A stretch of DNA of 64,000 bases from Polytrichum commune (lineage: Eukaryota > Streptophyta > Polytrichopsida > Polytrichales > Polytrichaceae), in assembly GCA_950295325.1 (NCBI GenBank), contig OX485804.1, positions 6,822,001 to 6,886,000 of the forward strand, in the 5' to 3' direction. The first letter of the stretch is position 1. Each line of letters begins with the position of its first letter. Below are positions 8,325 through 47,859 of the stretch, in pieces. Under the pieces are notes generated by a model that ran no database searches, had not been told where the DNA came from, and was given only the letters and a program-made list of their open reading frames with translations. The position numbers were made by a program, and so were the translations under genes.

Positions 8325-10607
8325 CTACTTCCCGGCAACCTTTCTGTTGGGTTCGAATACGAACTTTATCAATGATTCCTTGATGGGTAGCATCTCTGGA
8401 AATTCCTTCCATAGTTTACTGGCATCCAATTCGTTGTTGCTCCGCGCCGCCACGATCACCTTCGCTTGCTCCTCCAGACTGAAATTCACCCATGTCAACT
8501 CCGGGTCGATGTACTCCTTGTACATCTCCATGATCTCGTTGTGGCTCACCACGCCCGGATTCGTGAAGTTCCAGATGCCCCGCAGGTTGCGCTTTGCCAT
8601 CTCGATGGAGATGGGCAGCAGCTCATCCAAAATCGTCATGCTGTTAGGAATGTTCACGATCTTCTGGTACCGTGCAATCTTCGTGATGAAATTGCGCGGA
8701 TTCTGCAAGTCCGAAGTGATGGGCATCCGCACGCGCAGTGTGCACACATTGTCGAACTCGCTCAGGAGCTCCTCCACCTGAAAATTCATTTAAACGATTC
8801 TGGGCTTAGAAATAGATTCACCATCGCACCACTTCATAACAAAACCTTCTTGCACCTCAATGCCTACTAACCCACCAGAATCACTCCCCATGCCTACATC
8901 AAAAACTCTCAACCCCTTCAAGCCCACCAAAATCAACCACTGTGCCTACCGGAAAAATTTGGAATCCCTTCAAGCAAACCGAAACCGATCACTCACCATG
9001 GCCTTCGTCTTCGAGTAGTACGACCCGAAGAAGTTCGGCTTGTCCTCCTCCAAGAACCCCACGCCGCTGCCCAGCTGGTGCTTCTCGTCGTACTCGAAGA
9101 TGCAGCCCGTCGCGAAGTTCACCAACAGCAGATCGTTCTGCTTGCAAACGTCCGCCAGCGTCAATGTGCCCACCACGTTCGCGCGGATTGTCTCCACCTT
9201 GTGGCTCTCGCACCAATCCACGTTGGGCCTGCCCGTCACTCCTGCCGCGTTGAACACGTGCGTCGGCTTCACGGTGGCTATGTCCTTCTCCAACTGGCTC
9301 CGATTCTCCAATCGCCCGCTGCCGTACTCGTAGCAGATCCCCTGTTTCTCGCAGATCTTGCCCAGCAGGCCCCCGATCCACCCCGTGCGCCCGTAGATCA
9401 GGAACTTCAAGTTAGGGTCTTGCACTCTGTTCTTCAACGGACCCGCCACCTTCTCCACCAGGCTGTGCAAGATTCCCCCGTTCGGGCTCCCGTTCGCCTT
9501 CGCGGCCGACCCTGCCTCCCCGACCTTCATTTCCTCGTCCCCTCTCTGCAAATCGGCCAGCTTCTCCACCCCGGGCATGATCAACGACCGGGGATGGGGC
9601 ACCAAGGCGCCCGACACATCGCCCCACCAATCCGGATTGCTCGTGTACCAATCCTTCGTTTTCTGCAACCCCTCCGCCCACGTCGTGCGCTCCTGCCACC
9701 CTAATTTTATTAGCTTCGCGTCGTCCAAAAAGTACCGCTGGTCGTTGAACGGCCGGTTGTCCACCATCTTGATCATCTTCTTGTAGTCCAGATTGAACAG
9801 CTCGCAAATGTCCTTCGCCACATCCAGCACTCTCCTCTCCTTCTTCGTGCCGATGTTGTACACATGTCCCACTACGCCCTTGTGCAACACGCACTCGAAT
9901 GCCTCCGCCACATCCTCGCAGAACAGGTAGCTGCGGACGTTCGATCCGTCGCCGTGGATCGGCAGCGGCTTGCCCTGCATTGCCAGCAGGATGAACTTCG
10001 GGATCAGCTTCTCGGGGAACTGGTTCGGCCCGTACACGTTGTTCCCGCGGGTCGTGATGAACGGCAGCCCGTACGACCGCCCGTACGCCATCACCAACAT
10101 CTCCGCGCCCGCCTTCGTCGCGGAGTAAGGGTTCGTGGGCAGCAGCTGCGAAGCCTCGTGGTTGCCCACGATGGCGTCCTCCTCCGTCTCGCCATACACC
10201 TCGTCCGTGCTCACGTGGATGAACCGCTTGATCTGCCCCGTCACCTTGCACGCCTCCAACAGCACGTGCGTCCCGTAGATGTTGTTCTTCGTGAATTCGA
10301 AGCTGTTCCCGAACGAATTGTCCACGTGCGTCTGTGCCGCGAAGTGCATTATCGTGTCGATGCCCTCCGTGATCAGCAGGTAGTTCACCAGATCCGCGCT
10401 CGCAATGTCGCCCTTCACGAACTTGAAGTTCTTCGACGACTTCGACGGCGACAGGTTCTTCAGGTTCGAGCAGTAATCCAGCTTGTCCAGCACCACGATT
10501 TTGTATTGCGGGTAGTTCCGGATCAACCGGTTCGCCACATGTGACGCAATGAACCCGGCCGCGCCGGTGATCAAAATATTCTTCGGGGTATACGCCGAAT
10601 CCCCCAT
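8325..10607 (-). CDS. RHM: Trifunctional UDP-rhamnose synthase, copy A
   Basis: Two exons, 10607-8997 and 8777-8325, joined by a 219-nt phase-0 intron (donor GTGAGT, acceptor TTTTCAG), encode 687 residues. The N-terminal half is UDP-glucose 4,6-dehydratase: NAD-binding GAAGFIA at 15-21, TDE at 134-136, YSATK at 161-165. A variable linker spans about 345-400. The C-terminal half is the bifunctional 3,5-epimerase/4-reductase: GRTGWIGG at 406-413, YSKTK at 531-535, then a second-exon tail ending FVFEPNRKVAGK. The protein makes UDP-L-rhamnose from UDP-glucose in the cytosol for pectin and glycoside synthesis. The chosen ATG is the one shared with copy B; 12 upstream in-frame codons here are not open in copy B. 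Codons are strongly GC-ending, unlike the AT-rich surroundings. No defects seen. Confidence 0.97.
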
Positions 10608-13980: not shown

Positions 13981-16890
13981 ATCCCAATTGTGAGAATAGT
14001 TGATTGAATTAAAATGGCTAGTAATAAAGAGAAGTTAATTAAAATTGTGACAATGCAAGTCAACATGAACATGGACATGAGAGATGAGCAAGAACATATT
14101 GAAATTGATATAGAGAGGAAGCATGGGGAGGGGTCACTCCCGTATTGAAGAAGACTATGTGAGAACCAACATAGGGTCCACTTTAGAGTTACAAACTACA
14201 AATTATTAAACATGTACTTGTAGAAAAACTCTAGTTATATATTGAGATCCCTTATATAAATAAATTCAAATGTTTACAAATTGATCATGTTAGAGAAGTT
14301 TCAAAAATAACATATCATAGGGCTCATTATGGTAGGAAATTAAAATAATATATTTAGGGCCCCACACTATGGATGACCACTGTTGGATGATATCTCATGG
14401 ACGTCACTTAGTAGCTAGATGTCTTATGGTGGGTTAGATGCGGGAAGGGCTCACAATGGGTTTGTGCATTTTGTTTGGCTTTGTGAGCTCCCAATTAGGA
14501 TTTGCCGAAGTTCTTTGAAGTTTTTATGTTTGTGCAAACTCCCACCATCTTGCAAACTAGGCAAGTGTTGATGGTTGATTGTTGAAGGTTGGATAGTAGG
14601 CACACGTGCATAAGTGTGCTCCTTAGGTGCACCCATCCCAAAGCTTCACCCATTTCAGTTGGGTAGGGTTTTGAACTCCTTTTGTGATTTGTCACATTTT
14701 TTGGGAGCATGGTTGATGCAAAAGGATGGGGACAACATCAATAAAAGGCGTTTTTATGAGTAATACCACCTGCGACTCGAGATACTTGATTCTAGTGAGG
14801 TTGTTGGTCACAAACCAAGTTTGCAATGTTGTTGAAGTTTAAATTGTTTTCACTTGTTTGATGCTAGTCCAAAACTTCTTGGCTTGTGAGTGTGGTGAGG
14901 GCAACACATATGCAAAATTTATACCACTACTTGAAGGTATTTATATTGTACATTGGCCTTTTCAATTCTTTGATATTGAGAATAGATGCATGATCAACTG
15001 CAAACTTGACGGGCTTAGTAGAATTTTTTGGAATGTCTATGTTCTATCACTAGTTGGTCCCAACCTTGAATCTAGAAAGCACATGTGTGTGATTGACCTA
15101 TATTTTGTTTTCAACCCTCAACAAACTATAGAGTGCATAACAGAGGAGGTTGAAATCCAAGATCTTACCATGTTTGATGACTATAACTAGCCATTGCCTT
15201 CACCTACTGGTTCTAGAGTTAGTGGTGAGAGCACTGACACATGTGACATTTGACTTGAAGTCCACATTATTAAGAGATGAGGTTATAGCTATAAACTTGC
15301 TGGCCACAGAGAATATTAGGAATTATCTTAAACTACTAACCTTGGAGGATCACCAATGAAACTTGAGGTCTTTGGACCATAAATTTGTGGGTGTAGTAAA
15401 GGTCAATTGTGTCGAGTGTTGTAAAGAGTTTGGATCCACCACTAGATATCAGTCCAAGAACAAAATCCACAACCTCATTGCCCATTTTTTTTTAAATCAC
15501 ATCATATCTAACATATATCTTTGAAATTGGTGCCAAAGAAAGGAAGTTTAGTTTAGTGATCATCCCCAATCACAAGCTTATAATCATAATCACAAGATGA
15601 AATCTATTGTCTTGGATTGCATCTGACCATGAAACTAGTGGTTAAAGGCATCTAGATACTAGGTGCAACGAATGAAATTAATGCCGATGAGAAAAAAAAA
15701 CCATTTGCTATCATTGGGGACGGGGTTGCTAGTATGTGAGCTTGCAAGCATGAGCCTGTGAGCCTGTGAGCCTTCGATTTTTTCCTAGTTATGGTTTGTA
15801 AATCCGTTGGGGGCCTATGACTGTGGAATTACATGTAAGGGTTTATAGTCCAAATGATCAACAAATGAAAATGTTGCTATGCCAATTTTGTACCAAAAAA
15901 TGAATTAATATACGTTCAAATGTTGAGATAATAATATGGTTATCAGATACAATGTGTAAGCAAACTCATGTTGAAAATAAGTGTAGCATGTTAGGATGTC
16001 TCACTACAATACACATTAATGTAAAATTTGAAAACATCATAACACCATCATAACGGTGACATTCACAAAGTCCAAAATACAAAAGAACAACAAAAGTAGG
16101 TTGTAGACATAAATCGAGTTGTAGACGTAAAGGTTGGATATAAATTTGGTTAGAGGCAAAGTCTACAAGCATTGCAAGCACTAAAATATGAATAATGCCT
16201 TAGAATGATCAAGCAATGAGTTTGAATGCTTTTGAAATGCCTATGAAAGATTAGACAAATGAAAATTATGAATTTGAATGATAAAAAATTGTCCACCTAT
16301 ATTAATATTCAAAAACTATGTTGTATAGTTTATAAATAAAATGTGGTACGTTATTTTCCCATAGACCCAAATAAAACCTCAAATTTAAATGTGTAGGTAA
16401 TCAAGCGGTCAACCAATCTAATTTGTTTAGAGGTGCTTACTTTCAATATGAATTGCATGGTGCTATGGTTGCATTCCATTGCATTTGTAAAAAATAATAT
16501 TGAAGTTCTTGAAAATCAAATATCAAAAATCAAATATCAAATCATGAATACAAACTCAAATATCGTCAGACTTAGATGCATTGAGTTCAAAACAAGCACA
16601 TACTTTAGTATCGTTATATTTATGAGGTGAAGGAAAAGTTGAAGATGAATTAGATGAAGCATTAGCATAAGCTTCAGTTAAAGCCTCAACATAAACAGGG
16701 AGGCTATGAGGACTAAGAAAGGGGCTTCTAAATAATCCATGATGCCAATAAAATGACAAGGTTTGCATAGGCGATAGATTTATCCAACTGCAAATAACAA
16801 ACCATGTATTAGAGTATGTAACAAAAAACTAGAGTAAAAAATCTAAAATTTGCAATTGAAATTGTTAAGAGGAAAATACGGAAAAAAAAT
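13981..16890. other. AT-rich intergenic, no recognised gene
   Basis: Short open frames (for example 14858-15190 on +) do not resemble any family I know, and their length fits chance in AT-rich DNA. A minus-strand stretch at 16,768-16,556 sits just downstream of the methylase C-terminal fragment. It may be decayed 3' coding sequence of that gene, but this cannot be shown by eye. Confidence 0.3.
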
Positions 16891-16899
16891 TATTCTCAT

Positions 16900-17510
16900 A
16901 AGTTAAGTAGTGCAACGTCTTCTATTGGAGAATCATCATTAAAGTCCATACCATCGCATGTGGTAGCATAATCAAGATTCTTGAAGCCAGTTGTAGGTGT
17001 TTGAAGAGATTTTAATAAGTTCGGCATCAAAAATTTCTGCATCACTTTCTAATGCTAAAATAGGACGATTGGATGAATGAGCCGCTCTAATAAAAGAACC
17101 TAGATGAAATACAATATTTAAATTAGAAAAAATAAACATTGAAATATAAATTAAAAAACATATAAACTAATAATTGGATATTATAAAATACTATACATGT
17201 AGAAGCAGTCATGTTTGCCAAAATACCGCCTACAGGGCTCAAACCATGATTAAATAACTTCATTAGAACTTCAGACTTCTCCTTTGCACCCCTTCATGGT
17301 TTGTCATCTATTTGTCTACATAATCGACTTGTCATATTAATAGAGTTGAAGATAACGTCATCTGTGATTAAATCGATCTCTTGAATTAAGGGATGCATAG
17401 TGATCATAAGCTTTTGAGTTTGCTTCGCAACAAGAATTAAAAATGATCGAACCAATAACAAAGCCTCACTACAAGAGAAACAAGGGTTTTTAGTACAGTG
17501 TTTTAGCATG
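16900..17510 (-). pseudogene. ParB/methylase-like gene, copy 1: C-terminal SAM-binding fragment
   Basis: On the minus strand, 17509-17220 reads through MHPLIQEIDLITDD, then (one stop after QIDDKP) RGAKEKSEVLMKLFNHGLSP and VGGILANMTAST. After a likely intron (donor GTATAG near 17,193, acceptor TCTAG near 17,112) it continues SFIRAAHSSNRPILALESD and AEIFDAELIKISS. This pattern (EKS..LM..LF, PGG-like turn, TASTGS-like loop, R..LALESD..IF) is that of the C-terminal AdoMet-binding region of beta-class DNA N4/N6-methylases. I infer it is the 3' end of the gene whose other exons lie at 22.0-28.0 kb on the same strand. The stop and lost flanking exons mark it as a pseudogene. Confidence 0.5.
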
Positions 17511-17689
17511 CATGTGCTAATTGGACCAACACTTCATGAAAAAAAGAAACCGACATGTTTCTAGTATAAGTGTTGGAAAATAGTCATTGTTGACACATTG
17601 ACGCCCCGATATTGTTTATAGGACGACTTACATCGTCCTATAAACAATCAGACAATTTGCCCAATAGATTGTATGAATTATGGTTGGTA

Positions 17690-18520
17690 ATTTTTAGGGC
17701 GTATGTAGAAAATCATGTACACAGTAAATAGTAGACAATTTCTAGTATATAATAAATAAAAGTCCGTTAATAGTAAAATAATATACTATAAATAATAAAT
17801 AAGAATAACACACCATTAATATAAATAATATAATAATATAACAAAATAATAAATATCAGACCATAAATAGTAAATAATATACTATATACATTACATAAGA
17901 ATAACATACTGAAAATAATAAATAATATACTATATAAAAATAGATAATAATAAAATACTATAAATAATAAACAAAAGACCATTAATAGTACTAATATACT
18001 ATGAATATTGAAAATTAAATATCAGACTATAAATAGTAAACAATATACTATATATAGTAGATAATAATAACATACTCAAAATAATAAAGAATAAATATCA
18101 GACCATTAATAGTAATAATATACTATAAATATTAAAGAATAAATATCATACCATAATTGTAAATAATATACTATATATAATAGATAATAATAACATATTG
18201 AAATTAATAAATAATAAAGACAATAATAATAAATAATAAACATCAGACCATTAATAGTAATAATATACTATAAATATTAATATGACATATTATAAATACT
18301 ATAAATTATAAACTATAAACAATAAATATTAGGCAGTACATAGTAAATATGATAATTTAAACAGTAAATACGAGGCAGTAAATAGAAAATACGAGATACT
18401 TAATAATAATAATAGGCAGTATACAAAAAATACTGGATAATAAATTATAAGCAATAAATAACAGACATTAAATAATATATGCCGTATATAGTTGATATTA
18501 TATTGTATACAATAAATAAA
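17690..18520. repeat. Degenerate AT-rich array
   Basis: The segment is almost entirely A and T. A recurring block approximates AATATCAGACCATTAATAGT followed by AATAATATACTATA. It recurs near 17,850, 17,970 (AAAGACCATTAATAGT), 18,016, 18,095, 18,140 and 18,240. TAGTA...TACTA within each unit is self-complementary. Open frames here are low-complexity Tyr/Ile/Leu runs and not genes. It lies where an intron of the methylase-like gene would be. Confidence 0.6.
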
Positions 18521-18581
18521 AAATAAATAGTAACTTGGGGCCTTTATATACAAATGTTTTAATTACTTCTAATATATCATG

Positions 18582-19270
18582 CGCAGAGTGGTGGCTTAGT
18601 GGCTAAGGCCTCTATGTGGGAGCCAAGAGGTTCAAGCACGGGTAGATCACTTAGTGCATTTTAAAAACGACGTGAGGCATAATATAGAGAGGATTAAAAT
18701 CATTTGAAATAAAAATTATAAAGGAATTCCAAATAATGAAGGGGCCATTAAATGTAGACAACCCCATTATAAGTAAGTTAGATGGACATAAAATGTGGAC
18801 CATTATTTTTTTGTAAAATTAATATAGGGGCTGAAAATAAGGATCCTATGTGTTTTCATCATAACAATGTTTGCAATGATATTACTTTGCTATGGTCTCC
18901 TATGTGTTTTCTTCATAACTCTGTTTGCAATGGTATTAATGTTTGCACCCTTCTTTGTATCCATGCTTTCCCTCAACACTCGTCAATTGCGTTAGGAAGT
19001 AGATTAGCTTTTATTACTTAAAAGGAATATAGAGTACAAAAAATTGCAGTGACTTGGACAATATAAGTAATGGAAGGGTGTAAACAAATAGGCCATTTTT
19101 GAAATTTAAGTAATTATAGGGAGGCTTTAATTCAACCCTTGAAAGTAAATAGCCCCAAAACAAAAAACCCCCAGCCGCACGTGGTGCACAAAAATGCCTT
19201 AGAGTGATCTACCCGTGGGTTCAAGAATCAAATCCCTTGGCCCCCCGCCCTTGGCTTAGCCTACTAGGTA
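18582..19270. repeat. Inverted pair of tRNA-like (SINE-like) heads around 500 bp
   Basis: At 18,592-18,639 a box-A-like TGGCTTAGTGG and a box-B-like GGTTCAAGCAC lie about 35 bases apart, as in tRNA genes and tRNA-derived SINEs. The right end (19,190-19,270) carries the inverted counterpart: both share ACGGGTAGATCACT followed by a GCATTTT-like stretch. There is no complete cloverleaf, so not a tRNA gene. Alternatively this is a foldback element whose ends happen to look tRNA-like. Confidence 0.4.
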
Positions 19271-19844
19271 AGTGTCTAGGCACTTAGAACTTATAGGTGC
19301 TTATAGATGGCAAGGCTCGGGAGGTGAGGATTGGACTTACTAATGGTGGATATCTCTTTTAAATGACACTCATTTGTTATAAAATATGACCACTCATTAT
19401 TCAACATATCAACCAATGATAGCCCTACACATGCATGCACGCTTTAACGTTAAGTAATAATTTAGTGTGCAGCCCGTAAAACTTTTAGTATATTTAGACA
19501 TCATAAACAATGGTCCTAAACATATTGGCTATGTGTAGTTAGGTTTTTAGGGTAGGGTTCAAACTCTGAAAACCCCATGGAAGACCAAAGGAGTATCAGA
19601 TGTATCTCTAGTTTGTCACGATAAGGTTAATTGATAGGTTAAAACGTTTATGGTATGCTTTTGACAATCAATTAACTTAAAATTTACTCCCTCATTTGCA
19701 CTTGGTTATCACTTGTTAGGATGAATTAGCTTATAAGGGGTAAATTACTCAGCCACAATTTTATATCTCATGAACATTGACAAAGACTCTTAGTGCTCAT
19801 AAATAAATTATCATGTTTAACAAAAGTCTAGTAACGAGTGACGG

Positions 19845-20035
19845 GAACCGAGTCTTAAGCGTGTGAACTGGCCTAGGATAGTAACACAAGTCTAGTATCA
19901 AGTCAAGGGCCAAGAGTCTCAAGTAGACAGTCAAATAGACAGCCTAGTCACCAGTGCCAAGTAGACAGTCTTAGTTCCAAGTAACGAGTCTAGTCACCAG
20001 TAACCAGTAGCGAGTCTTGTGTCATGAGAAGCGTC
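19845..20035. repeat. Short degenerate AGTC-rich minisatellite
   Basis: Repeated small variants such as AGTCTAGTAACGAGT, AAGTAGACAGTC and AGTCTAGTCACCAGT occur every 15-25 bases over about 190 bases. The units are too diverged to define a consensus by eye. No gene overlaps. Confidence 0.5.
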
Positions 20036-20499
20036 TGGACACATTAGCCATCCAAGTGAGTTAGGCTTTATACCTGCCCTGGGCGTGAACCCCAATCCAT
20101 ATGGGATAAGCATGCGCGCTCTCCTCTCGTCACAGCTCTTCCTACAGGCTCACCCGCGATCGTTTCCTGCACAACGATCTTCTCGACACGGCTACAACTT
20201 TTTTCCCCGATCATCACCTCATTGCTGCTGGAATTAATAGCTCCCACCGAGAACGAGCTGCGAGCACTTAAGTGAGGTGATCATGCTTAGCTAAGCCTCT
20301 TTTCAATTCTTCAAATCCACAAGCGGTAGACAACTCTCGTTGGTATTTCCCCTCAGTCTTTGAGATTTTGAAGCACAACCTCCTTCCTCTACTGGGCAAC
20401 AACCGATTTCCTTCTCGGAATATAAAGTTCTTCTCCGGCATTTGATTATCCAACCCTGATTTAACCTGTCAGTCGGCAAGCTAATATTTTTCTCCCTCC

Positions 20500-21110
20500 G
20501 AAGATTGTCATCAAATCAGAAGGCTTGGGTGTGCTCTTCCCCACTTATCAGGATGTGGTATTTCAGGGGTTATGTATCTTTACAACAATCACTTTAAATA
20601 CCACGCAGATTCTTCATTGAATTTGACCCGCATGAAGGCTCTTTACTCAGACACTTTGAGGTGCTTAAGAGAATTTCCTGCCGAAGTTCTCGATCCTCCT
20701 GATTGGAAGAAAGGATTCAAGTTATTTACCCTCCCTCTCGGAAGGTAAAGGGGATGACTTGAGTGTTGTGAGAATTAAATATGCTTCCCAAGCATATAAC
20801 AGTTTCTAAATTGGCAGGAAGGAGAATTTCACATTCAATGCGCCATAGGTTGTGTGTGATCAAGCAATTTTAGCAATTCATGACATTACAGTTATCCTTC
20901 AACATTCACACCATATGTTGAAATACTACAACGACACACACGGGGTTACTCATAGGTTACCCGAACAAAGGAATTATCTTTCTGAAAGAGGAGATTACAG
21001 ACTCGTTCAGGATTTCATATCATGGCCTCTAATCACCGAGGAATTTATTCTTCAGAATTCTAAGCCTCAAACTGTTATCAGAGAGACTTGTGAATTATAT
21101 TGACTTCATT
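20500..21110 (+). pseudogene. Unidentified broken coding region
   Basis: Open stretches in neighbouring frames follow one another with few bases lost, as in a frameshifted gene: KALYSDTLRCLREFPAEVLD near 20,640-20,695, then 20,852-21,103 with VTHRLPEQRNYLSERGDY. Composition is protein-like rather than low-complexity. I do not recognise the family. It lies within the interval between methylase-like exons but on the opposite strand, so it is probably an insertion. A chance open frame remains possible. Confidence 0.3.
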
Positions 21111-22039
21111 ACAGCCCCAAGTCTTTCACATCTTTCTGTTGAGATGTCACACTGCAACACCCAATTCTGATCATTTATAAAGGTGTTCACTTCCAACACG
21201 ATAAACTTCATCTTTGGAATCCCGAACCTTAAGAGACTGTCCAAGAAATTCCGGACCAGTCTCTTTACGATACAAACATGAAACATGTATCACTCCCTTC
21301 AAGAGTTTCACACTCCTGAATCAAATTCCACATCGACAACACTGATCACACTTCCCACTTCCACAAACAACTTATACACAATGCATATAGCTGAATTTAC
21401 AATCTGATATATTCAAAAAGTATGATTTACAATGAAACTTAAGGGTTTCACACCCAGTAATTGGGAGAGACTACAAAATCACTCTCTTCATGAGAGGAAG
21501 GTCCAAAACTCAAAATCTCTCCCTTCTGTCCTCTTCCTCCTCCTTCTTATCTTCCTGTCCCGAAAGGTGGTGACTGACTCTAGCCCGGATACCAAGTGCT
21601 TCTTCTAATTGTCACATGTGAATTTCATGCCTCTGATATCCTCTAGACTATGGGCAGCAAGGAAAATTCTGGCTTACTTGCATGTTTTCATTTCAAAGCA
21701 ACTAAGTGCCTAATGCTTCACTATTTTACTAGTCTTGAGTGAAATTTATCATTCATTTACTTTTCAAGACTAAAATTTAGGCATTCTGTCCAAAAAATGG
21801 TATCACACTATGTCCAAATAGACGATCCATGGGGTGTAGGGCATGGTCCCCCAAGACATGTCGTAGACAACACACTTTCTAGTAATATATGCTATTAGGT
21901 CACGTCTTTGTTTACTTCAATAAATGTCTTGTTACATGTCTAGATTGTACACAATCTCTAGTAGTGCCTTGAACTTCCGAGTCTGGAAGTTCAAATAAAA
22001 TTAAAATTAAAAAATACATATCATATAAAAACAAATTCA

Positions 22040-23320
22040 AATATGAAACAATCGAGATGAAATGCCATAATTATTACTTACATTTTTGGAAGGATTCATC
22101 GGATTTGTCAAGTACAAGCAATTAATCATAGTCCACTCATGTTTGACCTTGAATTTATAGTTCTTGAAGAACCTTGCCACTTCTTTCTTCATTGCAAAAT
22201 TGTCAGGATAAAATGAAATGAATGTTTCATCGTCATGAAGATAGGTAGGAACAAATGCCATCAATTAAGGAGAAAACTTGAAATGATGGCATTCCAATGA
22301 AGAACTTGAAATGGCAGATCCGAGACACTTGGACCCGAAGAGCATCTAGGTCATCTGCAATGATGAGGTCCACTATATATTTTTTTTGCAGTTGGCCATA
22401 AAAAAAAATTGTCTACCTTCATCAACCTACAAAGATAAAATACAAGAATTGTAATTTATAAATGAAGATGACAATTCAAAGAAAAAAAATGAAATAACAT
22501 GATGAATTAAAAGTGAAATTTTGTAAAATATGAAAGAAAATAAAAAATGTAAAATAAAATGAACTCACCTTTCATAAATTAGCCACAATGTCGTCGTATG
22601 GTACACAAAATATACCTATTTGCCTCTTATTCTCGATAATCCTCACAAAAGAATCATTCAATATTAAATTTGAAGATGTATAATTTGTAAGTAAAGGAGC
22701 CAAAATATTTATTATATCTCTAAATTTGGGAGGCATATCGAAGGTAAGAGAAGAGATAGTATTATGCAGCTTTGAAGTATGAAATATTACCTTTAGATTT
22801 GAAGAAGAAGGGCAATAACTATAAGGTTGTTGAGACTACTTTGAACTGGAACATTGTCATCGTTATTATGATGTAGGAGAGTTGGTTTTTAGGCTTAGAC
22901 TTTGTTTTTTCTGGCCTCTTGGCTATATCATCACCTCTTATAGTTGGAGCAATTATAATTGCACCCTTGAGGACGAATTGAAAGAAATCTTAAAGGGAAA
23001 TATCAAAAGTGAGAGGTGTTTTAAAAAGATCTAAATACCACCCATATTTTTCAAAATGCATAGAATCCTAAGATTTCATGATATCTTTTATGAATATGCA
23101 CTCTTCACTTTCTATGTTTAAATAATTAGCAAAAAAAAATGGGAAATTTGGAAATGGCTTTAGTAAGAAATATGACATATTTGAAGTACCTATAAAACAC
23201 CGTTCGCATAGTTGGATTGAAGTTGAGTTGTTTATCAATGTTATGGTTTTTGTAAACAACAAATTCACGAAAAAATAAAGTACTCAATGTGGTAGGAATT
23301 TTAAATATTTTTTGGTTCAT
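22040..23320 (-). pseudogene. ParB/methylase-like gene, copy 1: middle exons with catalytic-motif region
   Basis: On the minus strand, exon-like pieces include DMPPKFRDIINILAPLL (about 22,740-22,580, followed by donor GTGAGT). Next is GQLQKKYIVDLIIADDLDAL (about 22,395-22,340). After one frameshift comes FVPTYLHDDETF to NCLYLTNPMNPSKN (22,250-22,085), ending at donor GTAAGT. VDLIIAD followed by a variable loop, then a hydrophobic strand and acidic turn, matches the motif IV region (usually DPPY) of N4/N6 DNA methylases. Here the PPY-equivalent reads DLD, so catalysis would be lost. Further decayed exons extend to 23,320. The assignment is inference from motif order. Confidence 0.45.
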
Positions 23321-23329
23321 TTTTGAGTT

Positions 23330-25720
23330 AAACGTAACTAGAGCCTTTACTTAGCTGGTTATCACTTAAACTGGTGGGTGTAAGCAGACAATTGTCTCGA
23401 GAAAGTCGAAACAGTAACTAGTTTGGGCAATAGTTTGTTGAGGTGGAGGCGGTTACAGAAGTTGGCCGAACTCAAGGAATATAGGGAAGAAGGAGAGAGA
23501 AGGAAGCTCTCTTGTTTTTTTTTAGAGCAAGGCTGGGATGGCCTAAGAGAAATGTTTCTTGTGTGATTATAGAACTTTTGATTTTCTGAGTGAAGTCTAT
23601 AGTCTTCTGGAAGTTTCCACAGTCTATCGTAGCTTCAGGGTGTTTGTACTGAAGTAGGAATGGCCATATAATCACAGGTGTAAGTCTCATGGTTATTATT
23701 GATTGCAAGAAACAATCACAATTAACTCAGGCATATACTTTTACCTGCAGATTGGATGTCTGTCAATTGTCTTGTTGTTATGAGTTTCTTTATGTTTGTG
23801 TGCTTAATGGGGAGACACTTTGTTAAGTTGTACGGAAGAGAACTCTGAATTATTGGTAATTGAAGCATTCAGACATAATTTTATTAGTATATGACAATGT
23901 TGCCATATTTCGACTGTAATTGTCCCAGTTGTACACTGGGAAGGTGTGATTACGTGTAATACGAGCCGATAGTCTGTTTACCTGAAAGGTCAAGTTGAAT
24001 AGGAACAGAAGAGATAATTGTTAATTAGATTATTTCCGCTATTGATGATCCTTGGATTAAATTTCCTTTTAAATTAGACCTTGTTTCTGTTGTTGCTTTC
24101 TCGCTATAAGTATCGTCGAGACTATGGTCTAATTCTCTGATGTGGCTACCCCGTAATCAAGATGAGAATGGAATATGGATATGGCCTTACACGGTATGAT
24201 TGGTTGAGATCCTAGTGTTTGCTGTCCAAGTCATTGGAGTATGATAAATTCCTGGATTCCCTTTTAATTAATTAAAGTATACCTTCATAATCTGGCTCGA
24301 GGGATGGGTAATTCTCCGGTACCCTTGAGAGTTACGTTGATTTGTCTGTTGCTCGGTGCATAGTCTCATTGATCATTATTTTCACGACTATTGTCTGTGA
24401 GAGAAATCTCTGTGAGAATTAGCTTTGGTTTCTGGCCATAAATTCAGAGAATGCAGTCCGGTCTAGGGGAAATTGAAGTCAATCGTCTGCGATAATTCTG
24501 AAGTTACCTACAGTAAGGGGAGATTATTGACCAACATTGAAGTCAACTGGAACTTGAGTTTGCATTCAAGATACCGTCATGTACAAATTACAATTAAATG
24601 AGATAACTTTGCAGCCTGCGTGAGGTAAGTAACGAGCCTCACAGAGTCTGGTGATGAATGTATGGTTATATGGAACTATTTCCTTGAGCAATTACCCTAG
24701 TCAATTGTCATTGGTGTGATTTTACTTTCTAAATTAATTTGAGTAAGGAGTTATGTGTCGTTGTAATATGGGAAAATATATAATTAATTCGGTCAAGGAA
24801 TACGACTATTGTCCTCTATGTGTAAATGAAGAAACTGTTCCCTTACAACCTTTGATGGAGATTGAAAAGCCAACAAGTTGAGTTCATAGACTTTGGAAGG
24901 TGAACTTATGGTTGAAGAACCGGAAGGACGTGCCGTTCACCATATTGGTATGATTTGATTCTTGTTTCACACCTCATAAGGATTAAAGTGAATTGGACCT
25001 TTTAATACTTTAAGGAATGAATCGTTTAAACATTATTCATAATAATGAAATGAGTTGCTAAGTCAATTGTCTAAACTTTGAATGTATGAAATTGAAACCT
25101 TGAATAAACTAAGTGAGATTATGAGAGAGGTGAGAATCTGTTGACATGCATATGTGGTGATGGTTTATTGACGCATTGACCGAGCATATGATTACTCTGA
25201 TGCAAATCAAGTAAAAAGACAATTGTCGGACTGTGAAATTAAGATTGAAGTTAATGAAAGAAGACGGAATATCCGGCATGGATTACTGACTGTCATTTTC
25301 AAGTTTCACTAAACATGATTAATTAAGGAAAGACTATTGACTACGCCGAAGTGCCCGTGGCTTCGGTAAAGAGACAAAATGGGATACTATCGCAAGACTA
25401 TTGACTATGGCCGTGCCTATGATTTTGCACCGCACCTTGGTCCAATTAAAATGTACTCACTGTCAGACTATTGACTGGGAATTTAGAGTGAGAAAAGAGA
25501 CTGTCACTTTTGCATGCACTGTTGTGGAGTGATCTTTTAGATGTTTTTATCCCCTGTCCGTAAACCAATTGTCATACCTAACTTGAAATGAAGTGTTATA
25601 ACCTTGTGTTTTCCCTAACAAAACTTATCTAAGACACCTAGATGATCTAAAAGTCACCTTTTAAGTCTTCCTTGATTGTTTCCCTGGGTTTGTTTGTAAC
25701 CAAAAAAACTAACTACACTC
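23330..25720. repeat. R1 repeat, long copy, in an intron of the ParB/methylase-like gene
   Basis: A 2.4-kb non-coding repeat. It is marked by many palindromic or near-palindromic CAATTGTC boxes (for example GACAATTGTC near 23,390 and GTCAATTGTC near 23,760 and 24,690) and by GACTATTGAC (near 25,335, 25,400 and 25,465). Diverged copies occur at 13.4 kb and, inverted, at 62.7 kb. Right flank and R1 end are shared with the 62.7 kb copy. No reading frame was recognised. Whether it is a transposon or simply old intron is open. Confidence 0.6.
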
Positions 25721-25744
25721 AACATGATATGTACATTGTCTTCA

Positions 25745-26170
25745 CATAATAAAAAATAATGGACAAATGATCCATACCATTTAGAATATAGTTGATGAAG
25801 ACATGAAGATTAGTCATAGTAATATAAAAAAGTTTCTCGGTCTCAATAGTCAACTGTCATATATAAAATGAACGTTAGAAGAACTCAATGATTAAAAAAA
25901 ATCAAAGAATGAAAGAAAAAACACTAATACTAAAAATAAAATGAACGAGAAAAAAAACAAAAAATACAAATAATCACTTGAACCCATTAAGTAGCTTTAT
26001 AAAGCCACTCAGAATACTCTATATCATTAAATTTTGGTTTCGGAAATTTAAGAACATCACAAAGAGCAAGTGAGTTATACTACCTCTCAAGCCACTTATT
26101 CTTCATAGAAAATGTTCATAGCCGAAGTTGTCAACATCCAAAGTTTTTCTTAAGTCATCTCAACACTAAA
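25745..26170 (-). pseudogene. ParB/methylase-like gene, copy 1: two exon remnants next to R1
   Basis: On the minus strand, an exon-like piece near 26,140-26,000 reads NSLALCDVLKFPKPKFND and SEWLYKAT. A second near 25,860-25,750 reads QLTIETEKLF and INYILNG. Both have counterparts on + at 62,225-62,680 (NSLAFREAFKILKQKFND; QLAIEKKK), in the same order, with the same R1 border after them. This shared order is why I treat them as exons of one gene family. Function of this segment is unknown; stops are present. Confidence 0.45.
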
Positions 26171-26721
26171 GTTATCCGTAAAGTGAGCTGAAGAGAGGGT
26201 TTTGGGCCTGGATTTGAGAAAATTGTGTGATAGGCCCTAAAAGTGGAGCAGGTGTCTATAGCTATAAAAAAACACAGGCACAAATCTTTTGAGGGACCGG
26301 AAATGGTGAAAAAAAAATTGCTCCTGTGTTGCGAGCGCGCCCCGGGAATTTAGCGTCGCTTTGTCAGAGGGCCCTCTCCTGTTTCGCTAATTCTGTTAGG
26401 GGTGCAGACAAGACGCGCATGATGGCGATGGTGATGGTGGACAGGGGAAGGGGGGAAGGCGGCGATGCAAAGCAAAGCAAAGGAAAAACAAGTGGCTCTT
26501 TCTCATCTTTGTGGGGGGATCAAGGATGAAGGCGTGGCTTGTGGCAAAGGGGAGGAGGCGCGGGAGCAGATCGAGTAAACGGGAGCAGACCAGCTCTGAC
26601 CCTAAACCCTGGCCTTGTGTATTATGCCCTGGAATTCAAGAGCCTTACTTTGCGTTTCCATGGGTTTGTGTGAATAGTGCACTCAAAATCTGTCAAAACA
26701 CCAGCTTACTTTACGGATAAC
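26171..26721. mobile_element. 551-bp GC-rich element with 20-bp terminal inverted repeats
   Basis: GTTATCCGTAAAGTGAGCTG at 26171-26190 and CAGCTTACTTTACGGATAAC at 26702-26721 are inverted at 19 of 20 positions. The interior (26,320-26,630) is far richer in G and C than its surroundings. Two short open frames inside (26326-26529, 26511-26720) match nothing I know. It splits the ParB/methylase-like gene between the 26.8 and 26.1 kb exons. Superfamily not determined; no target duplication found. Confidence 0.6.
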
Positions 26722-26769
26722 TCCACTATCATCGTGAGATTCATAGTGAGATTTCACCTGCTCTAAAAA

Positions 26770-27480
26770 CAAAGGAGTATGTTTAGGATCCGTAATGAAA
26801 AGTTGTTTATTTAGTTGAATGAGAGGTCAATCTTATTTTATCAACAACTTTGGAAACCCATTCATCAACTGCACTTGAAGTCCAATGTGCATGATTGGGG
26901 TAATTCTCATAAAATTTCCTTTGAGCAATAGTAGCAACATCCTCCAGCTCTTGCTACACCAAGAAAATAATAATAAAATAATAATAAATCACATATTAAA
27001 AAATGAGATGCAGTAAATTTTTTTATAGTAGAAGTCCAAATGAACAATAAAAATAAAGGAAACATACAAGAAGTGAAAAACATATGCAAGAAAATTTGAT
27101 ATTTTAGAAAAAATAACCTCGTATAGAATTCAATTAAGAGCCTCAAATATTCAAAGTGAACCAAATTTTATTTTTGGGTTTTTGTTTGGCTTCAGCAAAT
27201 AATAAGGTCTACTTGGAGACAAGATTTTCAAAATATGAAAGTGGTTGTCCAACAATGCTTTGAATGCACAAAAGCTTATGAATAAAATTTGTAGACACAT
27301 AAGATTTTTCGTTCCTCTTGACAAAATGAAACAAATCATTATAAGATTTAAAAAATGAACATCCAAATAAAAAATAAAATAAAAAACCAAATAAAAATGA
27401 CAACTAAAAAAATAAAAATAAAAGAATTATCAATTGATTTCATGCAAGGTTGCCAACATAGTTGTAATATCTCCCTTGAT
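26770..27480 (-). pseudogene. ParB/methylase-like gene, copy 1: central exons
   Basis: Minus-strand pieces: CWQPCMKSIDN near 27,450; then VKRNEKSYVSTNFIHKLL and IQSIVGQPLSYFENLV (27,320-27,215); then, after acceptor GTGTAG near 26,955, LEDVATIAQRKFYENYPNHA and VDEWVSKVVDKIRLTSHS (26,950-26,800). The + strand copy at 53.6-54.15 kb has the same pieces in the same order with the same acceptor position, which supports real exons separated by AT-rich introns. I do not recognise this central domain. It lies between the ParB-like and methylase-like parts. Confidence 0.5.
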
Positions 27481-27554
27481 TTTCAAAATAATATTTTTAA
27501 CGAAATAATATCAAATAGAGTCATGTGTGTGGTCTCGATTAATAATGGGCAACC

Positions 27555-28022
27555 AGACTTGCAAACGGTGGTTGCCGTCCCAAACTATGAATATTTTGCC
27601 AGAGAAAACTTTGAGGTCCTCATCATTTTGCAATATTTCCTCAAAGGTAGCATTTACCCGCACCCAGTTGTCACTTCATGATTCAATTATAATATCAATA
27701 ACATTAACTATTTTCCCCTCATTGTCAACCAAGGTTATGTAATTAATTCTATTGCCCTCTATATAACCACAAACAACAAAATGTGCAGTCAGGTTCATAA
27801 CATCATTTTTCAATAAAGGTCTAATAACTAGCAATGAAATCATTCTACATAAGGGAATATTGACTTTTAATTTTGCCCGTGGTTGATACCTCAACCGTTC
27901 AAGACGGGAAGAGATGTTGACAATTTATTTTTTCAAGAATGCATGTAATTATAATGCCAATTGATTTTAAGAAAGAGATACATTTTCCAAATTTGAAGCA
28001 CAAAAAATACCACCCATATGAA
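27555..28022 (-). pseudogene. ParB/methylase-like gene, copy 1: N-terminal and ParB-like part
   Basis: The start region (28,020-27,930) is a decayed match of MGGTFCALDVEVLHLSQ in copy 2. Then 27894-27560 reads MISLLVIRPLLKNDV, GYIEGNRINYITLVDNEGK, a stop, NATFEEILQNDEDLKVFSGK and IFIVWDGNHRLQVW. The ending VWDGNHRLQVW resembles the ParB/sulfiredoxin signature (G-x-H-R), and the preceding regulated-strand/helix order fits a ParB N-terminal domain. ParB-like domains fused ahead of DNA methylases are known from bacteria and phages. I infer the same architecture here. An in-frame stop near 27,685 shows decay. Confidence 0.45.
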
Positions 28023-28179
28023 AAGAAAATGAACAACAATTAATAATAGTGTTTACATATGAAAAAAATTACACATCCATAGTAAAATCAAATGCAAAAT
28101 GGGCAACCCTTGTGGAAGGAAAAAAAATGAAAACAAGTGTATACAAAATATAATATAATAAAAATAAAAATTGAAATGA

Positions 28180-28760
28180 AAAAAAAGTGGCCGTTAACGG
28201 CCACCCTTATGAAAGACAAATTTTGTAATCAAAGTGAGTGTTTATAAGTGGGCAAAAACAAATATGCAAAAAAAAATGAAAATGAAAAAAGGAAGACAAA
28301 AGTTGTAATGAAAGTCGGTGTTTATGAGTGGAAGAAAACACATATGCAAAGAAAATTGAAATGAAAAATAGGGTGATCGTTAATGGCCACCCTTATTAAA
28401 AAAAACAAATGTTGTAATGAAAGTGAGTGTTTATAAGTGGTCAAAAAAATGAAATGAAAAAAAAGGTGGTCGTTAACGGCCACTCTTATGAAAGACAATG
28501 AATTTTTGGAAAGTGAGTGTTTATATGTGGAAGAAACCACATATGCAAAACAAACTGAAATGGAAAATACAATAGCCGTTAACGGCCACTCTCTTAGAAA
28601 GAAAGAAAATGAATTCATATTTGTGATTTTATTTGAAAAAAATCATATTGTTAAATGAAGACTAGAACCCAAGACGGGGGTGGCCGTCAATGGTTGCCAT
28701 AAACTAGAACACCAAAACTCGAATCAAAGAAGGGGTGGCAGTTAATGGGTAGCCATTTGG
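28180..28760. repeat. Palindromic-core satellite, array 1
   Basis: About five to six units of 95-110 bases, each with a core close to GTGGCCGTTAACGGCCAC (near 28,192, 28,376, 28,468, 28,573, 28,684 and 28,737). Next comes a GAAAGTGAGTGTTTATA block and a CATATG box. The array lies immediately 5' of the ParB/methylase-like gene on the minus strand. The same satellite occurs inverted at 51.0-53.5 kb. Confidence 0.75.
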
Positions 28761-29160
28761 AAGAGAGTAAGTGCACCTTGATCTGTGTCGCTTTCCGGAG
28801 TTGCAGCCGCTTGGTTGCCCTTCCTCACTATATCTTTGGGCCCATGTCGTAGCCTGGATTCCGTAGTAGCATCTACTTCCTCCATAGTGGTCGCTCTTGC
28901 TTTGTGCGTATGTTGTTGCCGCCACACCTGCAAAGAGGATGTTTGAAGAGGACACAAGGGGTAGGGCCTCAAGAAATTAGGGTAAACCGGACTCAAAAGT
29001 GTGTGTGTATATATATATACCTAATACAAAATTGGTAGATTTCATTCAATGGAATCTTTGCTATAACTTCTTCAAATTTTGTTCAAATTCGGCCAGTTTT
29101 CGGCCAATTAATTTTCTTCGAATTCGGCCAAAGTAGGGAGTGTCTTGAATTGCTCACAAA
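28761..29160. other. Spacer between satellite and MULE remnant
   Basis: Holds a GTGTGTGTATATATATATAC simple repeat near 29,000 and overlapping minus-strand open frames (28,704-28,996) of no recognised family. A terminal repeat of the MULE element could lie here but was not identified. Confidence 0.3.
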
Positions 29161-31564
29161 GTGGCCAAAAATCCATCCGCCATTGTCCTAGCTGCAAGAA
29201 AGGAATTTCTCGACACATTTTTTATTTACTATGGATCTGGACCAAAGGAGATTCTCCGCGATGATGCATTGGAGAACGTTATGGATAAGTTTCATCTCCG
29301 TAGCTTAGCCAACATTCGCAACATGATATCCTCTTTCCAGAGCAACAACAAAGGCGGTGGTGAGATTGATCGTATTCTCGACATGAAGGGACCTGCCAAA
29401 ATGGATTACATCCACAATAATGTATTCCCGGGCCAAGGCCATGAGAAGGTTTATTTGTTCAAGATGCTTGGACCTGGGAGTGGTGTTGATCTTGTACGGC
29501 GGATGCAACCAGGGGGCGACCTCCAAAATTGCTTTTGTCATGTTCGATTATGTCAAAAGGGTGAAATCATGGACAACTATCGCATGTCATGTCTATGACT
29601 CCACTTATTGCAAAGTCATGACCATTGTTGTCTGCGATATGCAAACTGAGGGCACTGAAGGCCAACTTATTTTTTGGCGTTGTTTGAATAAAACAATGGC
29701 ACAAAATGGGATGTCTGATCCAACCTTTAAAGAACTCATGTGTGACAATGCTCAAGCCAATTTTAATGCAGTTCACATTGTGTGTGGGACGGGGGATCCA
29801 TCCGTTCCAATGGTGGACCGTGAAAGAACTTGTTTATTCCACTGGGCAACAAACATGCACAAGCATATAGAAAAACTCGTTGCCAAAGAATTCCAAAACC
29901 AACATATTCAACTCTGCAGGCAATACAAGGATGCAACTTCGATGTCTGAGGTGGACAAAATGTACCTAAAAATCAAAGCTCAGTGGTACTCTTCTAGAGC
30001 TGTATCAGAATCATCGATTCGTGAACTCGAGGATTGGCTCGCGTTTTGGCATTTTCAGTACCGTTAGTGGGGTGGATTCATGGAAACGGTATCACCTTTA
30101 CCATTTTTGCGCCTTTTGTTTCTTATTATAAGACTTAATCTTTAAATTGTTTCATTAATGTCTACATTCGTCATCTTTGTAGAGACTCACAACAGAGGAA
30201 TTGGCGGACATCCCAACTTGCAACCTAGCATAAACAATGCACAACAAATGGATGCAAGCTTTAGGGAAACGCGGGTCCGACTTGTTTGTTGCCACATGTG
30301 ATGATTGGGTTTGAGCCTTCATGCAAATGACCAACTATAGAGCTTATCTTTGCGGGGGCCCTTTCGGTAAAGGACCTTCTAAACAATATTTGAAATTGAA
30401 AAGAGCTATGGAATCCGGAGACAGAAAGAAAATTGTTGAAGCACTCAATGAGATGCCTGGCGCATAAGACATTTGCATTCAAATTCCACACTTGGAGGGG
30501 GAAGAGGTATTCGGTTCCACCAAAAGGATTTTGGATCTTCCGATTGGTTCTAAAGGTGATTTTCATCGCCCTAACAAGGTTAAATTCTCTCATCCTTGGG
30601 TTCAAACTAAATCTACACTATTAGAATGCAACTAGGAACTATTGCTGAGGAGTTCAACACCGTCATGCTCCATATCCAAATTGTGGTGGAAACAAATTGT
30701 GATACATCAGAATGGCACGTAGCAAGAATCTCACACAAATCAAAGAAACAATGTCACGCCATTCAAAAACACACACAAGCCAAATGCAAAATGTTGGTTG
30801 TTATGCATGGGAAGCCCACTGATGTCCCTACTTAAAAAGGGCAGAAGCGTGAGTATAAGGGCACAATAATTGAAATTGAGGAGTTTTGGTTTTGTCCAGA
30901 CCAAATTGTGCATTGCGTCACGGGACCTAAGCGTTGCTATGTTCTTACACGACCTGAAATCCCTGAAGTTTGGCTTGTTCATACTGGTACCAACCTTACC
31001 CATACTAAAGTCATTGAGCTTGAAAATTTTGGGTTTTGCCTACAATCCAACATGCCCATTTCCCCTCGACAACTTCTCTCCTCGTCTACAGTATTTCAGC
31101 ATGTTTTGTGGACTCATCCTCGACCAACACATGCCGAGAGAATCCCTTCTCTTCGGAATGGCAAACAAGTTCATCAAAGTTGTAAGGCACCCACCAAAAA
31201 TCACCGCAATCAGTGGGAGAGTGCAAGAAATGTAAGTGGAATTATTACTAGGGTGAACCTCCTTCCTTACCCTGGACTTGGTGCTATTATCACGCTTTCG
31301 TCCAAGACTACTTCTAACGAGAAAGTGTATAACATCACACTTTGTAATTTTCCATCTTGTATTTGTCCCCATTATGGAAGCATGAAGGGCACATTCATTG
31401 GAAAGCGTGGCATGTACATAAACTGCAAACACCTTTATTACATCTTCCGTTACTTATGCAAATTGGATTACAAGAAAGACACTTTTGTCCATGCTCCTAT
31501 CCTCAATTGGGATGAAATTAAGCAAGTGTTTGTTGTTGCCAAAATCGTCAAGACATGTGAGTGA
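29161..31564 (+). pseudogene. MULE-type transposase with SWIM zinc finger, decayed
   Basis: The reading runs KEILRDDALENVMDKFHLRS (N-terminal), a frameshift near 29,537, then WTTIACHVYDSTYCKV, VVCDMQTEG, LMCDNAQANFNAVH (catalytic-core Asp) and RTCLFHWATNMHKH (the C..H of MULE transposases). A stop at 30,065 replaces a codon in YRQWGG. A probable intron (30,089-30,182) restores frame into LTTEELADIP. Later pieces include FGKGPSKQYLKLKRAME and VFGSTKRILDLPIG. The last long frame (30,908-31,564) holds a SWIM-type zinc finger, CICPHY...NCKHLYYI. This is Mutator-like DDE transposase architecture. At least one frameshift and several stops make it non-functional. Confidence 0.8.
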
Positions 31565-46200: not shown

Positions 46201-47855
46201 CTCCGCTATAACTGAGGGAGCTTTACCTGGTTTTTAGGGAAGACTTTGGTTATTTCATAAAGTCAGGTGGGGAGGGGACATGAGACATATTGTCCTAAAT
46301 TGCAAATCGACCTTTGCAAGGCTAGCTTAACCCACCCATCCTAGTAGGACAAGTTAGGTGAGTTTTCATGTAGGCCACTTGCCCACCGTGTTCTAGTGGA
46401 AATAAGACAAACCCGTCCAAATGTAGATGGAATATGATGGGGTAGGGTTTGTATGTGCCAACTAGCTACTCTCGTGTTCTCAAATCAAGCCAACCTACTA
46501 ACCTCCTTCATGTTAAAACTTCGTCCTCTTCCTAAAACCAATCTTCAACCCTTTGGCAACCAACAATTGTAGATTAAAAAGTGTTTTCACAAACACATAG
46601 AAGTCTAGCAGCCCGTGTCCACAACCCTCCACATTCTAGTAGGCCACTAGAATATGGTCGGTTGCAGCTTATGCTTATCTACATGTGAGCACCTTCAAAC
46701 CACTATTCTCTAGAACCTAATGGACGAACAACTTGCCTTTAAAAAAATCAATATTTAATAGCATGACAACACTCTTTGTGCATGATAAATCACGCATTGA
46801 GAAATGTTGGGGGACTTTGTGTCAATTCTCATAAACTCAAATCTTGGGACTAAGTTACACGCATGGAATTGAGTACACCATACATCATTGTGAAACAATC
46901 GAAGTGATATTTAAAATGTTATTTCAATAAATTATTATATCTTCCATGATATGTTCCTTTGGAAGTTTGTGAACGAATCTCCACAATACGTGCACTCATC
47001 TTGTAGTAGAACAATATACGATATTTGGGAGAATATTTCTGTGCATATTATTGATTGTTACTCATGATTGTTGCTGGATTTTGTGACAAAGTGGAAGGTA
47101 ACGCTTCCCATTCTCTTTCCAGCAAGCTTCCCTTCTCTTTCGCATCAATTAATCAACATAAACTAAGCTTAAGGAGAAGTTTTGGCAAGGTGCTTTTCGG
47201 CCCCTTTCACATTGGAGTCAAAGAACTAAACAGGAAAGCCCCGGTGGGGCCCACCACGGGCCTTGGCCTTTAGGCATGTAAATTGTGACTTGAATACCGT
47301 AGAGTGCTCTTTGGTTCAACACATTAAGTTAAGGGCCGCTTTACACCTAGAGGCCGGGCCAATTCCTCTTGAGGCTGATTGCATGAAATTTCAGCCCTTT
47401 TTGGGTTGGAGGCCAGCCTCAACTACACATTATAATAAGATTATAATGTGGGTCAACTTTTTCATATGTAAAGGCCTTAGGGTCAAGAAGCAAGGTCGTT
47501 TCAATATATCTAGCATGATCCAATGGATCTAGCATGATCTAGTATAGAGCCGTTCAAATTTCCACATAATCCAACAGATTTAGTTCGATGAAGAAAAAAA
47601 ATCATGTTCTTTTGTATTTGTGAGCTACTTCCTTTGTTATAGAGTCTTTTTTACATTGCGAAAAGAACAAAGTTCATTACAAGGATTTTGAAATAAAATT
47701 ATTAATAAAATTGTAATCAATTAGTGGAAACTGAAACACATAAAAATATTAGTGATCATACATATTAATGTTGTGCATGGTGTTTAGAAGAAGCACAAAC
47801 ACACCAACTAATTCAAGGATAATGCAATCTACAAAGTGATGTCATGTTTGTCTTG
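43280..47855. other. Intergenic, no recognised gene
   Basis: AT-rich with short open frames (45,009-45,191; 45,428-45,685; 45,739-46,077) that I cannot assign. An 11-C run lies at 43,569-43,579. A perfect 8-bp-arm palindrome ATTCTAGT/ACTAGAAT lies near 46,633. No long repeats or domains found. Confidence 0.3.
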
Positions 47856-47859
47856 ATGA

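Follow-up and report, generated by a model that had tools for sequence, protein, structure and literature searches.

VANDAL transposons of Arabidopsis combine a conserved transposase with a fast-diverging accessory protein, VANC, and with subfamily-specific tandem non-coding motifs (PMC5735166, in the accessible part of that paper). In the literature searched, the plant-transposon anti-silencing proteins encountered were those of VANDAL. Genes for DNA-modification-type enzymes are found in several kinds of mobile element. According to the accessible part of PMC12730594, fungal DNA transposons harbor TET/JBP dioxygenases, and excerpts of PMC5890265 and PMC3627910 describe DIRS elements with Dam-like methylases, LINE (long interspersed nuclear element) and DIRS elements with DNMTs, and viral Mariner elements with methylases. 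A eukaryotic amino-methyltransferase of the permuted PF01555 type, N4CMT, occurs in bdelloid rotifers (PMC8885841, in the part consulted). Here, a 64,000-nucleotide stretch of the plant Polytrichum commune is analysed (assembly GCA_950295325.1, contig OX485804.1, C2:6822001-6886000 in our numbering). This whole stretch is referred to as the window. It almost certainly contains a decayed DNA transposon of the terminal-inverted-repeat type, whose two divergent genes encode a transposase and an accessory protein composed of an N-terminal domain (N-domain), a central domain and a PF01555-type methylase domain.

An earlier note, made from the letters of the window alone, had proposed a decayed multi-exon gene on the minus strand that may fuse a ParB-like domain to a DNA amino-methylase. 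The motifs it named are all found on that strand, in the places it gave. Relatives were searched in the same genome assembly (408 Mb, 64 contigs), and profiles built from the less decayed ones, with the window rows left out, were run on the six read-through frames of the window. The element comprises the following features, in window positions.

15721-31561, no strand: minimal extent of the decayed transposon, from homology to relative F and the transposase up to 31561
15721-16124, minus: methylase-side flank of the element, 87% nucleotide match to F 6131-6524
17017-17103, minus: methylase domain, motif I end and beyond (SFIRAAHSSNRPILALESD), profile E 0.008, weak but collinear
17041-17067, minus: RPILALESD, motif match
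17080-17097, minus: SFIRAA, motif match
17183-17476, minus: methylase domain, middle and motif I start (RGAKEK...GGILANMTAST), by profile and tblastn
17198-17209, minus: TAST, motif match
22082-22370, minus: methylase domain, motif IV side (DLIIADDLDALRV), by motif, profile and tblastn
22353-22370, minus: DLIIAD, motif match
25748-26160, minus: central part, continuation, 73% nucleotide match to relative F 5720-6092
26729-27325, minus: central domain exons, tblastn 27325-27227 (E 8e-4) and 26808-26737 (E 0.07)
27433-27924, minus: N-domain exon, the "ParB-like" part of the earlier note, open apart from two TGA codons
27553-27585, minus: VWDGNHRLQVW, motif match
28187-28590, no strand: intergenic region with four copies of the omega palindrome GTGGCCGTTAACGGCCAC, exact at 28187, degenerate at 28373, 28466 and 28572
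29149-30094, plus: transposase, first part (D...CxxH region; 226-aa open stretch 29387-30064), tblastn with the transposase of element C
30186-31561, plus: transposase, C-terminal part with SWIM-like zinc-finger region, tblastn 39-51% identity, E 5e-99

The N-domain (profile match at 27870-27430, E 1e-43) and the three methylase parts are collinear on one strand. The first methylase part is matched by the profile at 22267-22082 (E 1.4e-10; tblastn with locus L018, E 7e-10) and the second at 17425-17186 (E 1.9e-8; tblastn with L013, E 2e-6). The central domain falls within a 77% nucleotide match of window 28099-26729 to relative F. Two long gaps, 25748-22370 and 22082-17476, interrupt the gene and are likely due to inserted repeats. 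No terminal repeats of the window element were found; on the methylase side, the element breaks off at 15721. The earlier note had suggested looking for an intact homologue in plant genomes, and a less decayed one exists in the same genome: in L002, on contig C1, the N-domain (its exon containing ...MFHIWDGNHPFKAW) is followed by the central domain and then by the methylase, in the same order on one strand, and the fragments of the window therefore belong to one gene. Reading TGA as tryptophan leaves no further stop in the window N-exon. Because the relatives carry tryptophan at the place of the first TGA in 7/7 rows and of the second in 5/7, both stops probably arose by TGG to TGA changes. 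Such stops fit the C-to-T decay of a methylated, silenced repeat.

The carrier element suspected in the earlier note is the transposon itself, of which this is the second gene. Loci A, B and C co-align as far as the termini that they share, GAGGGAAGCTATCTTATGAGC on one side and ...GATAGCACTCCCC on the opposite side, with a terminal repeat of ~60 bp as aligned in element A. Six complete elements measure 8,581 (A), 12,344 (B), 11,727 (C), 6,705 (F), 6,608 (G) and 14,851 bp (H). All six are flanked by 10-bp target duplications, which are identical at 10/10 positions in five and at 9/10 in F, that of H being read by eye from the flanks. The terminus pattern has 350 + 358 = 708 matches in the genome, and the reversed-pattern control none. 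On contig C1, 93 termini form 35 facing pairs, 11 of them 6.0-7.1 kb apart; of the 25 listed N-domain matches on this contig, 18 fall inside such pairs. A methylase query of the genome yields at least 86 matches, from near-intact to degraded (78 of 1414 candidates scored); among those listed, 44 are 34-37% identical over ~100 residues, mostly in 153-aa open frames, and are spread over all seven large contigs. The expansion proposed by the earlier note thus holds, although not as plain duplication, since the copies spread by transposition. The transposase at 29149-31561 (plus strand), the palindromes between the two genes and the further copies in the window had been overlooked.

In element C, the transposase gene lies on the other strand from the methylase gene; its open frames of 742 and 455 aa include a D...CxxH stretch as well as a SWIM-like region. 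It is also present in B and H, and F and G carry its C-terminal part. Used as a tblastn query, it matches window 29450-30094 with 50% identity (E 9e-64) and 29149-29592 with 38% (E 2e-21). No Pfam family exceeds its cut-off in the transposase: the SWIM match reaches 13 bits in relatives, below the cut-off of 19.6, and is unlisted for the window stretch, where DDE_Tnp_1 scores 13 versus 23 bits. By-eye comparison places none of the 142 listed PF10551 hits (150 of 271 candidates scored) in the fetched elements. In hhalign comparisons, nine Mutator-like element (MULE) frames of the same genome give at most 1.13%, with a positive control that is itself weak (26%). The AlphaFold2 model of the window stretch is too poor for a fold search, with a predicted local distance difference test score (pLDDT) of 40.7. 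MULE target duplications are ~9-11 bp, with terminal inverted repeats (PMC6446971, in the part consulted), and the elements show both (10 bp, 6/6). A Mutator placement would rest on these duplications and on the D...CxxH/SWIM-like layout; the transposase may also found a transposase group outside Pfam.

Homology of the C-terminal part to the PF01555 amino-methyltransferases is firm, as the earlier note had supposed. Six of eight rows of the alignment of relatives (A2) match PF01555 at E <= 1 (best 2.5e-9), profile searches of PDB sequences retrieve DpnA (1.2e-9), CcrM (1.3e-5), MboIIA (0.0018) and, only at 0.3, RsrI, and hhalign against phage methylases gives 99.0% (E 7e-17). Motif IV lies N-terminal to motif I, the beta-class order, both in the relatives and in the window, and the profile alignment to DpnA spans 6-215. 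In the whole genome, PF01555 has five matches. Two are on large contigs (C1 and C4), exceed the curated cut-off (32.4 bits versus 26.7 for the L002 frame) and sit in 577-aa open frames within these elements; the other three are on the small contigs C10 and C12. A phage tblastn with one gamma methylase returned 95 records. Among the 15 listed, identity is 20-28% and 13 are annotated as methylases, and from these matches no source of the methylase can be named.

The catalytic [DNS]PP[YFW] signature is lost: DPPY occurs in motif IV of no copy read. Four subfamilies are distinguished, alpha (elements A, B and C), beta (D, E and H), gamma (loci L013-L019, read around the accessory gene only) and omega (the window, F and G). 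Alpha copies have QFPDG in 18/23 cases and a near variant in five, one of these with a stop, and the first acidic residue is gone in 23/23. Beta copies have DIPDG in D, H, L119 and L121 (4/5) and DIPYG in E (1/5). Gamma loci have DLPEG, DIPEG or DIPEN in 6/7, the seventh being unread, and the window has DDLDA at this position. The protein would thus be a PF01555 homologue not expected to be an active member of the family. Its reading frame is under purifying selection. Across seven exon blocks of 23 alpha copies, the ratio of nonsynonymous to synonymous substitution rates (dN/dS) is 0.22, 0.11, 0.25, 0.15, 0.33, 0.38 and 0.55, versus 0.72-1.83 in the two other frames. Twenty of these copies were additional ones, hand-picked from 150 listed and all without a stop in the N-exon, so that the set leans to intact copies; the pairs are not independent, and the contrast between frames stands nonetheless. 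Copies free of stops and indels number 22, 18, 18, 15, 15, 18 and 13 of 23 in the successive blocks. We take this protein to be retained for a role other than ordinary methylation, because its reading frame is conserved though motif IV is lost.

The region separating the two genes contains arrays of 18-22 bp palindromes, which alpha elements have in a transposase intron as well, and the palindrome sequences differ by subfamily. Alpha palindromes are GTTTGGGTCG-NN-CGACCCAAAC, with a 32-bp period, and CCCTGTGCGTTAACGCACAGGG, with a 64-bp period. The beta palindrome is GTTTGTGCGC-NN-GCGCACAAAC, also given as GTTTGTGCGCNNGCGCACAAAC, with a period of ~105 bp, and that of gamma locus L019, CCCACGGGTG-NN-CACCCGTGGG, is mostly found 3' of the gene. 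Palindromic sites number 5 in A, 18 in B, 14 in C, 5 in F, 4 in G and 3 in H, versus a mean of 0.04-0.12 and a maximum of 2 in shuffled elements. The whole window has nine omega palindromes at up to four mismatches, versus 0.04 per shuffled window, and two perfect palindromes of any sequence, versus 0.60. The omega palindrome has 143 copies in the genome, and 19 of the 22 on C1 lie inside facing terminus pairs, which cover 0.52% of that contig. CpG retention in arrays and in the rest of the element is 0.88/0.74 in B, 0.97/0.73 in C, 0.68/0.64 in F and 0.73/0.63 in G. This direction agrees with protection, but repeat homogenisation could cause a higher CpG in the arrays.

The two genes diverge to different extents between subfamilies. 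Between C (alpha) and H (beta), transposase identity is 86% and 83% in the two long stretches, 70% in the first part and 70-89% in the other stretches that overlap or adjoin them, versus 34% for the N-domain and 38% for the methylase C-exon. The window transposase is only 38-51% identical to that of alpha. The transposase of F and G resembles that of alpha (60-93% depending on the stretch, ~80% in most), yet both elements carry the window-type accessory gene and palindrome. Because of this pairing, accessory gene and palindromes seem to move as one cassette, apart from the transposase. In F and G, the accessory gene is interrupted or partial, without a methylase match.

The N-domain is conserved across subfamilies, with invariant P, CR, RP, GY and GNH among others. 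It belongs to no Pfam family (best E 0.2, to one member and unrelated), has no match better than E 0.15 among PDB sequences, and a search of viral contigs with its alignment returned 43 pattern stretches and no relatives. The AlphaFold2 model of the N-exon, from two rows, has a pLDDT of 43.5, too poor for a fold search. The ParB-like domain of the earlier note finds no support in Pfam, in the PDB profile search or in comparisons of hidden Markov models (HMMs). With 10 ParB sequences, hhalign gives 0.06%, which is less than the top value among 100 column-shuffled controls (0.71), and with 65 bacterial and phage sequences 0.17%, while the positive control L022, a divergent ParB among the 65, reaches 98.95%. 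The HMM searches suggested in that note thus part ways: PF01555 is found in the relatives, and PF02195 has four matches in the genome at E <= 10, only on the small contigs C10, C12 and C23. Likeness to what we take to be ParB box II is limited to the short WDGNHR-like motif, and a ParB relationship is conceivable only as a resemblance in that one motif. The fold of the N-domain may be a new one for DNA binding, or it may be that of a ParB clamp which has diverged too far to be recognised.

How might such a protein serve its element? We tentatively favor, with a little less than an even chance, a VANC-like, sequence-specific anti-silencing or regulatory DNA-binding factor built on a dead methylase fold. 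A methylase fold deprived of normal catalysis would bind DNA sequence-specifically, at the palindromes arrayed between both genes and in introns, and this binding would protect or activate the element that encodes it, in the manner of VANC, which in Arabidopsis binds element-specific motifs of VANDAL and removes DNA methylation. Changes of target specificity and of the palindromes would go hand in hand, each subfamily having its own pair of protein and site beside a shared, conserved transposase and terminus. Both the binding of the protein to the palindromes and the counteraction of silencing by it are inferred. Alternatively, the second protein may take part in transposition as a structural partner, a role conceivable for mudrB or MutB too, and bind the internal palindromes to assemble or time the complex, with silencing uninvolved; this is unlikely. 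Mutator-type elements do have second genes of unknown or DNA-binding function (PMC6446971, in the part consulted), and the divergent layout and conserved reading frame recur here. However, the accessory gene diverges fast beside a conserved transposase and conserved termini, a pattern that an arms race fits better than a transposition core, and F and G, without a methylase match, belong to the multiplied class of ~6-7 kb, for which help in trans could account. An active amino-methyltransferase writing N4-methylcytosine (4mC) or N6-methyladenine (6mA) on the element, to mark it or to exclude 5-methylcytosine, is quite improbable. Homology to active enzymes is clear, copy E has DIPYG, and bdelloid rotifers make 4mC with a PF01555 enzyme; against this, the motif IV aromatic residue is gone in every copy read but E, alpha lacks the first acidic residue throughout, and changing SPPY to APPA abolishes the activity of the bdelloid enzyme (PMC8885841, in the part consulted).

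Acquisition of a genuine ParB-methylase fusion from phages or bacteria, with a ParB part that would still load at the palindromes and spread, is highly unlikely given the comparisons above. It would account for the WDGNHR-like motif beside a methylase and for the palindromic arrays, and true fusions of this type are known from phages and from small prokaryote-like contigs in the assembly. Capture of a host gene fragment (Pack-type), or a host gene with pseudogenes, has next to no likelihood: gene capture is frequent in plant transposons, but alpha, beta and the window all keep the gene divergent to the transposase with a conserved reading frame, and both large-contig PF01555 hits fall in these elements. 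Several observations weigh against the anti-silencing factor favored here. Residues of the S-adenosylmethionine (SAM) motifs are partly retained, motif I being VGTGA in 8/8 beta copies read, which also suits an active enzyme, so that some activity may persist, and the SAM-side block has the weakest dN/dS (0.55) and is intact in only 13/23 copies. Element H has only three palindromic sites, versus the shuffle maximum of two, and in the stretches read gamma L014-L017 have no perfect palindrome and L013 one. The first alpha palindrome, GTTTGGGTCGNNCGACCCAAAC, has 9231 exact copies in the genome (reversed pattern 0), also outside the elements, and may be the site of another factor. Neighboring palindromes and gene may be co-inherited without interaction, and neither Pfam nor hhalign assigns the transposase firmly to a superfamily. 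The full proposal, namely a land-plant transposon family that turned a bacterial-type DNA methylase into a dead, fast-evolving protein targeting palindrome arrays in its own element and shielding that element from host DNA methylation, independently of VANDAL, is somewhat unlikely as a whole.

Two further decayed copies are present in the window.

47761-48206, minus: second, separate decayed N-domain copy, profile E 3e-42, its end 1.7e-4, with two TGA codons
52868-62677, plus: third decayed copy, with palindromes at 52868-53406 and gene pieces at 53428-54177 and 62206-62677, from palindrome, nucleotide and profile matches; these pieces probably form one copy

All four in-frame stops of the two N-domain stretches of the window (27433-27924 and 47850-48206, minus) are TGA. 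Elsewhere in the genome, GTTTGGGTCGNNCGACCCAAAC arrays show several spacings (e.g., 32, 57, 64 and 78 bp), as at C1:616088-626110 and at 18122-22905 of the joined locus C (L009+L007+L008). Beta elements possess extra exons upstream of the N-domain (L012:4845-5761, plus; element H 8825-9739), with motifs HCDLSFTN...GDWGSA that we assume to be kinase-like; they have no Pfam hit, and the second exon no NCBIfam hit. A Tc5/pogo-type transposase (HTH_Tnp_Tc5, DDE_1) at L003:1859-2665 (plus) directly adjoins element A. The small contigs C10 (L021), C12 (L020) and C23 (L022) contain true ParB and ParB-methylase genes and probably represent contaminating prokaryotic or phage DNA. In the 722-aa protein of C10, the methylase seems to include an insert that is presumably intein-like (ending ...VTHNC). 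With 58 PF00504 (light-harvesting) matches, the genome is that of a green plant. For one light-harvesting protein, the best PDB chains after the multi-domain 9vfj_2 are 8htu_U and 7xqp_a, both from Physcomitrium structures, which makes a moss likely. At C5:1751760-1846160 (~95 kb), fourteen PF00504 matches share an identical top score.

Compared with the systems described so far, the family differs from each in a distinct way. As in the ParB-methylase fusions of phages and bacteria, another domain precedes the PF01555 methylase, although this N-domain has no detectable ParB homology. The bdelloid N4CMT is an active host enzyme with SPPY and a chromodomain, outside transposons (PMC8885841, in the part consulted). 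The fungal elements encode a dioxygenase and live in other hosts, whereas the methylase here is seemingly catalytically degenerate. The DIRS, LINE and Mariner cases concern other element and methylase classes, in contrast to a PF01555-type protein in a plant terminal-inverted-repeat element (PMC5890265 and PMC3627910, as excerpted). Among the papers listed in a literature search that covers few subscription journals and preprints, none describes a plant DNA transposon with a methylase of the PF01555 type, which does not imply absence, and a term search of the main text of the MULE survey PMC6446971, so far as accessible, did not return the word stem "methyl". Annotation pipelines could label such genes as plant DNA N4/N6-methylases, which bears on claims of 6mA and 4mC in plants. 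An N4-methyltransferase has also been studied in Marchantia. If the anti-silencing role is true, a eukaryotic PF01555-type methylase would have been kept by selection after the apparent loss of its catalytic motif, and a second, unrelated anti-silencing system would follow the logic of VANDAL, a convergence testable in another plant lineage. VANC possesses DUF1985/DUF287, in place of the methylase fold found here (PMC5735166, in the accessible part); the accessory-gene exons scanned against Pfam have no DUF1985 or DUF287 hit at E <= 1. The VANC motif is the short, non-palindromic YAGTATTAY, whereas the arrays here are palindromic. Judged from its sequences, the present family appears to share with VANDAL a conserved transposase, a diverging accessory protein and arrays of candidate sites.

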